Shown: one piece after another, positions 2,303-23,511 of the stretch
Numbering within the stretch: position 1 is the stretch's first letter
Layout: every line of letters begins with the position of its first letter
Origin: Candidatus Gastranaerophilales bacterium
Lineage (GTDB): Bacteria > Cyanobacteriota > Vampirovibrionia > Gastranaerophilales > Gastranaerophilaceae
DNA: 64,000 nucleotides
Direction: 5' to 3'
Assembly (NCBI GenBank): GCA_944325005.1
Contig: CALUYO010000001.1
Coordinates: forward strand, 124,001 to 188,000
Translations under genes and position numbers: made by a program
Notes under the pieces: generated by a model
The model's database searches: none
What the model was told of the DNA's origin: nothing
What the model saw: only the letters and a program-made list of their open reading frames with translations

Positions 2303-3882
2303 TGACAAAGAAAATCAGATGTGCAATTTATACTAGAAAATCCACAGAAGAAGGGCTTGAACAAGATTTCAACTCTCTTGATGCGCAAAGAGAAGCTTGT
2401 GAATCTTATATAAAATCTCAAAAGCACGAAGGCTGGAGTCTTTTAACTAAAAAATACGATGATGGCGGATATTCAGGCGGTACAATGGATCGTCCGGCAT
2501 TTAAACAACTTTTGCAAGATATTGAAAATGATGAAATTGATATTGTTGTGGTCTATAAAGTTGATAGGCTTACTCGTTCTTTGATGGATTTTTCAAAGAT
2601 TATTGAGATTTTAGACAAGCACAATGCCTCATTTGTTTCAATAACTCAGCATTTTAATACAACAACTTCAATGGGACGGTTAACGCTCAATATTTTGCTA
2701 TCCTTTGCGCAATTTGAAAGAGAAGTTACAGGAGAGCGAATTCGAGATAAATTTGAAGCTTCAAGACAAAAAGGGCTTTGGGTTAATGGTGCTACACCTT
2801 ATGGCTACACAAAAGATGAACACCACATTCTACAACCTCAACAACCATTTGCAGATAATGTTAAATTTATTTTTGAAGAATATCTCAAGGTTAAAAATGT
2901 TATTAAGTTAAAAGAGAGCCTTAATCAAAAAGGGATTCTTTCAAGGACAGGAAAACCATTCCCAAAATCAAATTTGTATCGGATGCTTGCTAACAAAGTG
3001 TATTTAGGCAAAATTCCTCACAAAAACAAAGTCTATGATGCTCAACATTCTCCGATTGTTTCAGAAGAATTGTTTAATGCTGTTCAAAATCTGCTACTTT
3101 TAAATGCGACAGAGCGTAAACATAGGACAAATGCAAAAGTTGGAACACTGTTATCAGGATTGCTTTATGACGATAAGGGAAATCTTATGTCTCCGACTTA
3201 CAGCAAAAGTGGTAACAAGTTATACAGATATTATATTAGCCAAGCACTGAAAGACCCAAGCAGATGCGAGCGAGGTGATATTACCAAAATTTCAGCAGGT
3301 GAAATTGAAAAGTATGTAAAAGATGATTTGACAAAACTTTTGCAAGATACATTATTGATCCAAAAATATTTAGAAAATTATTCAATCGAACAACAAACCA
3401 GCATTTTAAATACAATGCACGAATTTAGCCCTGATAAAGTATTTATTAGAACCGTTATAAAGCGTGTTGATATGAACTTAAATTTAATCAAAATCAGCTA
3501 CGACATAAATTATATAATCCAATATTTTGCAACGCTGGCATTTAATGCAAAATTTACATATACCCCAGAAGATGAACAGATTTACACAAAAGAACAAAAT
3601 GTCAGAATATCGTTAACCCCACAAAAGCAAAATAAAATTATTATCCCTGGAAAAGCTAATTATGATATGAAACTTATTCAGGCAATAGTAAAAAGTTTTT
3701 GGTACAACAAACTTGGAGCTGAAAGACGACTGCCGCCAGAAGCTAGAAATGGAAACAATAAGCGCTTGCGTAAACTAAGATTTCTGCCACCAGAAATTAT
3801 AGAAAGCATAATGAACGGAACTCAAGATCCGGAGTTGAATGTGAAAAAGCTTATTGCAATGGCAGATAAGTGCTGTAAGTAA
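2302..3882 (+). CDS. Large serine recombinase (resolvase/invertase family)
   Basis: A 526-residue site-specific recombinase. The N-terminal catalytic domain has the nucleophile in YTRKST (Ser14), the DxxYSGGTMDRPAF segment near residues 54-67, KVDRLTRS at 86-93 and the long E helix from about 125. The 'recombinase' domain begins near WVNGATPYGY (160-169). The following beta-ribbon (GLLYDDKGNLMSP, then RYYISQALKDPS) lacks the zinc-binding cysteines of phiC31-type enzymes; my recollection is that this is normal for DUF2924-linked recombinases. It is the only recombinase in the window, so it is the best candidate for inserting and excising the cassettes at ssrA. It may act in trans on the two neighbours, which lack one. 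Confidence 0.92.
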   Translation: MTKKIRCAIYTRKSTEEGLEQDFNSLDAQREACESYIKSQKHEGWSLLTKKYDDGGYSGGTMDRPAFKQLLQDIENDEIDIVVVYKVDRLTRSLMDFSKIIEILDKHNASFVSITQHFNTTTSMGRLTLNILLSFAQFEREVTGERIRDKFEASRQKGLWVNGATPYGYTKDEHHILQPQQPFADNVKFIFEEYLKVKNVIKLKESLNQKGILSRTGKPFPKSNLYRMLANKVYLGKIPHKNKVYDAQHSPIVSEELFNAVQNLLLLNATERKHRTNAKVGTLLSGLLYDDKGNLMSPTYSKSGNKLYRYYISQALKDPSRCERGDITKISAGEIEKYVKDDLTKLLQDTLLIQKYLENYSIEQQTSILNTMHEFSPDKVFIRTVIKRVDMNLNLIKISYDINYIIQYFATLAFNAKFTYTPEDEQIYTKEQNVRISLTPQKQNKIIIPGKANYDMKLIQAIVKSFWYNKLGAERRLPPEARNGNNKRLRKLRFLPPEIIESIMNGTQDPELNVKKLIAMADKCCK

Positions 3883-17741: not shown

Positions 17742-17775
17742 AAAAAATACCGGTTTTAGAAAACCGGTATTTTTT
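17742..17775. terminator. Bidirectional terminator
   Basis: AAAAAATACCGGTTTT-AG-AAAACCGGTATTTTTT, between the LysM gene and the convergent pseudopilin gene. The stop codon of the latter overlaps its edge. Confidence 0.9.
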
Positions 17776-18495
17776 AGTATGTCATCTCCCAGTTGTCGTT
17801 AATAATTTTTCCAAAACACCCGTGCCAGTTATTAGCAGTATTGCTTGTACATATTTTCTGGTAAGTGTCTTCACGTTTATCTTTAGACATAGGTGCTGTT
17901 GCAGTATTAGATACATCACTATCATCTATGAATCTATTGTTATACAGATATATTGCAAATAGATCCCTGCCTACTATATTTGGACCTTTTTGTCCATTTA
18001 CATCTACAAATATTTCACACAAAACGTCCCCCATTGGTCTGTAGCCTATGGCAATTGAACTCCCGCCGGCAATTACATAATGCGTTTTAGGGGTTGGCCA
18101 GGTTGTTATAGTTGTGCCTGACAGTTTTTTATATTCTCCCGCAGCGGGAAAACATGGTGTTCTATCTGAGCTGCAATTCTGTACAACTTTAAAATACTTT
18201 TCAATAAAATTTTCAGCGGCGGCTTGAGTTGTCAGACCTGCTTCTTTAAGATTAACTGCATTTTTTTCTGTCTGATATTGAACTGCGGCCTGTGAAAGTT
18301 CATTATATATTTTGTGTAATTGAGTAACATAGGATTGCCTTTGATAATTCTGCATCAAAGTAGGGACAGTCATAGCTGATACTACTCCAATAATGCCTAA
18401 AGTAACTAATACCTCAGCTAAAGTAAACCCATCTAACCCTGTATCCCAAGCGACCTTCGCGGGGGGGGGGCAACCCTTAACGCTTTGAAATTCAT
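17774..18495 (-). pseudogene. Type II/IV pseudopilin gene, out of frame at a C10 tract (probable phase-variable gene)
   Basis: The start ATG (18495-18493) sits 8 bases after AAGGAGG (18510-18504) and reads MNFKALRV, then enters ten C residues (minus strand; G's at 18461-18470) and stops soon after. In the frame used downstream the sequence is VAWDTGLDG then FTLAEVLVTLGIIGVVSAMT, a classic prepilin peptidase site (G/F, Glu+5), followed by a pseudopilin body to 17774. Eleven or eight C's would join the two halves. So it is either phase-variable by slippage or carries an assembly error. The downstream body (199+ residues, cysteine pairs near CSSDRTPC and CTSNTANNWHGC) is intact. Confidence 0.75.
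18461..18470. repeat. Homopolymer tract, ten G (+ strand)
   Basis: A run of ten G's, unusual in this AT-rich genome, 26-35 bases into the pseudopilin gene. It separates the start codon from the signal sequence by a -1/+2 frame error. Such tracts mutate in length often. Confidence 0.9.
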
Positions 18496-18560
18496 AATTT
18501 CTGCCTCCTTAAATTATTCTATTATACTTATTATATCATATTCCTCAGGTAAAGTCAAGT

Positions 18561-22612: not shown

Positions 22613-22845
22613 AAGTCTAACCCTCTGTTTATTTTCACTTCAATCTCTCTAGATAATCCTATCAGATTGAATGATATAATAACTCATCTGAAAATATTAT
22701 TTTGCTACTGTTTTAATAAAAGTTTACATATTTTATAAGTTTATTTAAATCACCTTGTTATAAGACACTTGAATGATGTTTGTGTGTTGAAAAAAAAGGG
22801 CATATATGTTATTATAATAATAGAACTATTACAGGAAGGATGTTT

Positions 22846-23511
22846 ATGAGAAGATTAAAAGGTTTTACAATGACCGAATTAATGGTGGCTCTTGCTATAA
22901 TTGGTATTCTTGTAGCTGTGGTTACTCCTACTATTATGAAGACCAGACCTAATAAAAATAAAATGATGGTTAAAAAGACATTTTATACCACTGAACAGAT
23001 TGTGGCTACATTGATTAATGATCAGAGACTTTATCCTGATTTGCGTGATGCCTGCGAAGATGATTGGATAGATGATTCGGTTGAATGTGCCTGGGGATTT
23101 GATTATGATAAACAGGTTAAATATGAAGGTGAAACATATCAGGGAAATACAAAGTTTGAGGGTTTATTCAGAAGCAGACTTAATGTAAAATCCGGTGATG
23201 ATGATGTATTTTTCACTACAGATGGTGTAAAATGGGATTTGTCAGGAACCGAAGGCGCTTGGACCTCTAATAAAAGTACTCCCGGATCATTTGACGATCA
23301 GACAAATGCTGCTGGTATTGGAGAAATTCTTATTGATGTAAATGGAGATGATGAGCCTAACTGTAGACAGACAGATACGGGCTGTGATGCTGACAACTTT
23401 GATCAATATGTAATACAGGTTCTGGCTACGGGTAAAATGCAGGTAGATCCTGATGATGCCAAAGCTGTTGAATGGGTTACAATTAACACTTCAATCCGTG
23501 ACGCTTTATAA
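22846..23511 (+). CDS. Type II/IV pseudopilin-like protein
   Basis: A 221-residue prepilin. I chose the ATG at 22846, which follows AGGAAGG (22833-22839); an ATG six bases earlier is also possible. The leader RRLKG is cut before FTMTELMVALAIIGILVAVV, with Glu at +5, then the body (about 200 residues) is acidic and rich in Asp/Thr/Asn. It ends in a variable domain with one cysteine pair (DACEDDWIDDSVEC) and a second pair (CRQTDTGC). It probably belongs to a pilus or secretion pseudopilus with unknown partners. Confidence 0.75.
   Translation: MRRLKGFTMTELMVALAIIGILVAVVTPTIMKTRPNKNKMMVKKTFYTTEQIVATLINDQRLYPDLRDACEDDWIDDSVECAWGFDYDKQVKYEGETYQGNTKFEGLFRSRLNVKSGDDDVFFTTDGVKWDLSGTEGAWTSNKSTPGSFDDQTNAAGIGEILIDVNGDDEPNCRQTDTGCDADNFDQYVIQVLATGKMQVDPDDAKAVEWVTINTSIRDAL

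Follow-up and report, generated by a model that had tools for sequence, protein, structure and literature searches.

In Bifidobacterium breve, a G-tract situated between two ORFs of a pilin switches the gene by replication slippage (PMC9187656). The genes of the order Gastranaerophilales described here resemble this system in that a G-tract parts the ORF of the secretion signal from the pilin body, with slippage as the event that joins, or here would join, the frames. The B. breve switch concerns two sortase-pilus loci, however, as compared with approximately 70 type IV pilin-like genes in the genome analyzed here, and the Gastranaerophilales tracts differ from it in having a mode of exactly 10, one shared register and a strand that is tied to replication. 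There is also a likeness to the poly-G phasome of Campylobacter, in which many intragenic poly-G tracts are found in an AT-rich genome, and interrupted tracts are seen in switch-less homologues (PMC6321876). In Campylobacter, tract lengths are mixed (52% G9, 30% G10) and C is on the coding strand in only 5% of the ORF poly-G/C tracts (PMC6321876), whereas here about a third of the pilin tracts are C-coding, approximately nine in ten tracts are exactly 10 long, and most belong to a single protein family. What distinguishes the tracts described here from the known poly-G switches is their replication polarity, their tight length and a 3' motif. A search of a literature library found no paper tying this order to phase variation.

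The locus that we describe lies in a window of 64 kb (contig C1, 124001-188000) of a 2.0 Mb Candidatus Gastranaerophilales genome assembled into 27 contigs. We propose, from sequence analysis, that its tract turns translation ON or OFF from within the leader of a prepilin, as one of about 70 such switches in the same genome, and that these switches undergo phase variation by slippage with OFF as the default state. We estimate the probability of this reading at roughly 0.7.

The window pilin and its C10 tract

The sequence-only reading of the window placed a ribosome-binding site and a start codon upstream of a C10 tract, with the prepilin signal in another frame, and the coordinates of AAGGAGG, ATG and C10 confirm this arrangement (Table 1). 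It also stated that 11 or 8 C's would reopen one frame. Translation from the window pilin ATG agrees, with an open frame of 240 aa at C11 and 239 aa at C8; at C10 there is a stop after 20 aa, at C9 after 26 aa, and at C12 after 27 aa. As in homopolymer phase-variable genes, a run of at least 8 separates the start codon from the functional portion of the ORF, and a change of +1 or -1 toggles the frame. The further statement that long G/C runs are rare in this AT-rich DNA is true of the window, where the pilin C10 is the sole G/C run of at least 7 and three overlapping C8 matches compare with 0.20 expected from shuffles, but it does not extend to the genome as a whole, in which the C10 pattern has 113 partly overlapping matches.

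Table 1. Features of the proposed pilin switch locus (17774-18510, minus strand); positions are those of the window.
Feature	Position	Strand	Basis
Shine-Dalgarno AAGGAGG	18504..18510	-	sequence
Leader, ATG to tract (MNFKALRV...)	18471..18495	-	sequence; sister genes with similar short leaders
ATG start codon of pilin leader	18493-18495	-	sequence
C10 on coding strand (G10 on + strand), proposed frame switch	18461..18470	-	sequence
3' motif of G strand, CAACCCTTAACGCTT (consensus C-R-N-YYY-NN-A-R-GCT-Y); overlaps leader of opposite strand	18471..18485	+	
Leader remainder plus body of the prepilin; continuous with the ATG only if the tract is 11 or 8 long; prepilin motif from ~18430	17774..18460	-	
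Cleavage-site Gly codon of G/FTLAEVLVTLGIIG	18428-18430	-	sequence

The encoded protein matches the prepilin N-terminal motif PF07963 and TIGR02532, both over the cut-off, and has the organization of type IV pilin-like proteins, that is, a G/FxxxE peptidase/methylation motif followed by a hydrophobic segment. It does not reach the curated cut-offs of the equivalog models for the type II secretion pseudopilins GspG and GspH, with scores of 29.6 and 22.9 bits where 88.85 and 80, respectively, are required.

Tract repertoire, length and register

Prepilin motifs number 95 in the genome, and in 71 of these 95 genes a tract of at least 10 is present within approximately 350 bases upstream. Two of the 24 prepilin genes that have no tract are also located in the window (22780-23511 and ~63852). 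In stretches amounting to ~1.08 Mb of the genome, which were picked partly around tracts and prepilin hits, there are 26 G/C runs of 6, five of 7, one of 8 and none of 9, followed by 86 runs of 10, seven of 11, and one each of 12 and 14; 86 of the 95 tracts of at least 10 are therefore exactly 10 long. With 7s and 8s rare and 9 absent, the tracts are a class apart from ordinary runs, and we reject the tail of the ordinary run-length distribution as their source.

Within the genus, 29 of the 33 genomes carry CG10CR, which reaches 162 copies in a single genome. A search of 25 genomes from other genera did not recover it. CG11CR is present in 0 to 7 copies per genome and CG9CR in 69 copies in the whole genus; when the per-genome rows of the 33 genomes are summed, the totals are ~1,500 G10 and ~95 G11. 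The named records that carry the element are mostly Candidatus Gastranaerophilales, and include Zag_111 and a record labelled Fusobacterium sp. CAG:439. The genomes without G10 tracts include pilin-poor ones (9, 16 and 23 prepilins), and G10 is almost absent from three pilin-rich genomes too (G022, G002 and G030, with 96 to 128 prepilins). In the stretches fetched from these three, a search of the leaders for an alternative homopolymer turned up mainly plain leaders of the MKK type or palindromic repeats rich in GC.

Two observations were made elsewhere. In Bifidobacterium callitrichidarum (locus L197, 2052-7981), six G9-G10 tracts are seen in 8 kb, each just past an ATG and all on one strand, possibly representing an independent tract family at signal-sequence starts. 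Three G/C runs of 10-11 are clustered in 3.4 kb of the viral contig IMGVR_UViG_2806310961_000002 (locus L319, at 5953, 8965 and 9334). A scan of viral contigs yielded 16 scattered hits.

These surveys bear on the checks that the sequence-only reading had set for itself. The same tract was to be sought at pilin starts in related genomes, and it is there in most of the genus. A uniform length of 11 or 8 was to signal assembly error; the length in the assembly is 10. A fixed length across strains in the absence of other such tracts was to count against switching. Other tracts are abundant, as the number of tract-bearing pilins in this one genome shows. There is a strong preference for 10 across species, and lengths of 9, 11 and 12 have also been assembled. 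Such a strongly preferred length across species implies that the tract is not freely drifting.

The register of the tracts was determined for those tract pilins, 199 in number, in which a start could be recognised and the frame of the pilin remains open back to the tract. The ATG is joined to the prepilin at 8/11 in 188 of them, at 10 in 9, and at 9/12 in 2, and the 8/11 register is common to G-coding and C-coding genes. Those pilins of the window's genome that have 11 G/C and the standard register have an open reading frame. Among 107 cases with 60-330 nt from the tract to the prepilin, this interval is open in the pilin frame in 101, compared with 4 and 0 for the other two frames. The median dN/dS among tract pilins is 0.16, which should be read for its direction only, as dS is often near saturation. 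Taken together, the openness of one frame between tract and prepilin and the low dN/dS suggest that the tract pilin genes are not decaying but maintained, and they look constrained. In addition, tract length is the sole difference within three near-identical pilin pairs from separate copies or species, two of them 10/11 and one 9/10, as is found for homopolymer phase-variable genes. Near-identical copies that differ by one G are the trace expected from slippage changes.

Phase variation by slippage, as the sequence-only reading had suggested, is therefore the best-supported explanation, considering the abundance of tract pilins, their spread through the genus, the length-only pairs, the open pilins of length 11 and the selection of one frame. 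In the mechanism that we propose, the leader ORF would end early at ten G/C pairs and no prepilin would be made, whereas one pair gained by replication slippage, or two lost, would join the start codon to the prepilin peptide. Slippage dynamics would keep the length near 10 as an equilibrium, such that each pilin is OFF but one insertion from ON. With few pilins ON at once, the outcome would be a pilin repertoire that is expressed rarely and combinatorially. Slippage as the cause, the low number of pilins ON per cell and, on the basis of translation, the absence of protein in the OFF state are all what we infer from the sequences.

Three points speak against slippage phase variation. The mode at 10 is sharp with few 9s, unlike the spread seen in Campylobacter, and pilins that are ON at 9 would also be one step away, yet they make up only 2 of the 199. 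The scarcity of the latter may result from descent of the leader module together with selection on the ON frame. In addition, some pilins have an in-frame ATG past the tract and might be made independently of it.

The uniform register, with one base more always needed, would also suit programmed recoding, and a near-fixed length is what a recoding site would require. Under such a scheme the length stays at 10, and a low level of prepilin is produced through -1 ribosomal frameshifting or through RNA polymerase adding one base. We regard this as unlikely, as alleles of 9 and 11 exist, and non-pilin genes whose frame is intact at 10 likewise have this length as a rule, among them a glycosyltransferase discussed below. 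Moreover, the coding strand carries G in some genes and C in others, and the strand of the tract tracks replication, not transcription.

Two other candidates were considered and rejected. Loss of mismatch repair does not fit with the full-length MutS1 match that is present in nearly all genomes, including that of the window, and a reverse-transcriptase writer of DGR or retron type does not fit with the lack of any PF00078 match in the tract-rich, ~99% complete genomes G007, G015, G025 and G026.

Some pilin loci have additional features. Four pairs of loci (L182/L149, L160/L115, L045/L169 and L029/L028) are alike on one side of the tract and unlike on the other, as if leader and pilin body had been exchanged with the junction at the tract. 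In L198, the genes at 3764 and 5767 have an identical leader and differ in two bases just past the tract (CACTCTCGG versus CTCTCGG), which shifts the register with the tract unchanged. Dispersed palindromic repeats are found inside the prepilin leaders of L134, L191, L198, L228, L333 and L340; in L134, those between tract and prepilin are open for ~110 codons in the 11 frame. At C1:257323, C4:159340, C5:16900 and other sites in the window's genome, the interval from tract to prepilin contains a promoter-like TTGCAA-N16-TATAAT and an in-frame ATG, as though an older pilin gene had acquired the tract leader at its front. Expression of these pilins might be independent of the tract.

Replication polarity and the 3' motif

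The window pilin is C-coding, with its G run on the + strand, as is the case for all other tracts of at least 10 found on the same contig. Across the genome, the G strand is the same in 77 of 79 neighbouring tract pairs, although the genes themselves lie on either strand. Within the contigs of G026, there are just two intervals in which the G strand flips, and these contain the minimum and maximum GC skew of the fetched stretches; in G027, 45/45 and 15/15 tracts are on one strand in two contigs. When the tracts of the window's genome are sorted by local GC skew, the counts on the G-rich strand are 59 versus 2 where the skew is positive and 18 versus 14 where it is negative, the latter indicating that local skew is a noisy guide. 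In bacteria the leading strand is usually G-rich, and the G-rich strand is taken as leading here; a motif search did not find dnaA, and origin and terminus were thus placed by GC skew alone. On this basis, the G run of the tracts lies on the leading strand, the one that serves as template for the lagging strand, irrespective of gene orientation.

G runs of 4 to 7 in the same genome show little strand preference. The polarity therefore belongs to the tracts, and we reject a general leading-strand bias of G runs as its explanation; the placement may instead reflect strand-dependent stability of long G runs. A known mutation hotspot, GnT, involves the same strand, extension of G runs at a 3' T being largely confined to runs of the leading strand (PMC12344412). 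However, as no such bias is visible in the short runs here, this bias alone is insufficient.

On the G strand, the run is preceded by C (usually as TC or GC) and followed by C and then R-N-YYY-NN-A-R-GCT, where GCT mostly starts 9-11 nt past the tract in both coding orientations. Among the pilin tracts in the stretches from the window's genome, 41 of the 46 G-coding and 22 of the 28 C-coding ones have GCT at +9 to +13; on the mirrored side it is found in 3 and 2 tracts, respectively, and the background is 6%. The motif is also present in non-pilin surface genes: GCT occurs at +9 to +13 in 13 of 26 spanning-ORF tracts with no nearby prepilin motif, a set in which one gene is represented by three orthologs and a few loci are viral. 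Because pilin copies share descent, the non-pilin genes weigh more as evidence for the motif. In a GT-D-type glycosyltransferase, the tract lineages have TTC-G10-CTGTTTATAGCTGC, and tract-less orthologs have, for example, TTC-CGGCGGCAGA-TTTTTTATAATTGC. G10 and AGCT occur together, and orthologs with and without the tract are equal in length, and hence insertion of extra DNA is rejected as the origin of the tract. This gene is in frame at G10 in three genomes, and length 10 is therefore a feature of the DNA itself, unrelated to the reading frame.

It is conceivable, if doubtful, that G10 and the 3' box C-R-N-YYY-NN-A-R-GCT constitute a directional DNA element that is read on the lagging-strand template during replication. 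GCT could, for example, set the start of an Okazaki primer 9-11 nt from the tract, an idea that comes from general knowledge of primer lengths. The RNA-DNA junction would then land at the G run, where slippage would be focused and held at ten.

Going further, G10 and the motif could be primarily a DNA element, such as a signal for recombination or replication whose location in leaders is incidental, with any frame switching being secondary. This would accommodate the polarity that is independent of gene strand, the frequency of GCT in pilin and non-pilin tracts, the glycosyltransferase tract and motif that differ together from orthologs of equal length, and the mosaic pairs, several of which switch partner at the tract. 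We nevertheless find it improbable, since the shared ON register and the open ON frame show that translation through the tract is important, the motif counts are not independent given the common descent of many tracts, and no machinery was found, reverse transcriptase being missing in several tract-rich genomes.

All tract lengths are taken from assemblies. Several contigs of the window's genome end within ~220 bases of a tract, and one of them (C5:155891-155972) ends in G14 followed by low-quality-looking sequence that terminates in AGATCGG and resembles a sequencing adapter, likely a poly-G sequencing artefact. Poly-G is hard for Illumina and tract lengths in databases can be wrong (PMC9187656), but an error of assembly or sequencing, in which 10 was written for a real length that is 11 or mixed, is an improbable explanation, given that the peak at 10 recurs in 29 separate genomes, that 9, 11 and 12 are assembled too, and that a uniform off-by-one would break the in-frame glycosyltransferase gene in three genomes.

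Significance of a proposed default-OFF pilin repertoire

If slippage phase variation is correct, this would be the largest single-family homopolymer switch set known to us. Strict leading-strand placement and a conserved flank, in many tracts per genome and in dozens of species, make up a natural experiment in how replication sets the length and mutability of a homopolymer. Should the directional element also be real, it would be a dedicated replication-coupled mutator site, placed before a pilin repertoire of up to ~150 genes. Metagenomes could show directly, gene by gene, whether a switch is ON or OFF. For the organisms themselves, slippage phase variation would mean that uncultured gut cyanobacteria spend a few percent of their genes on a default-OFF contingency repertoire of surface pilins.
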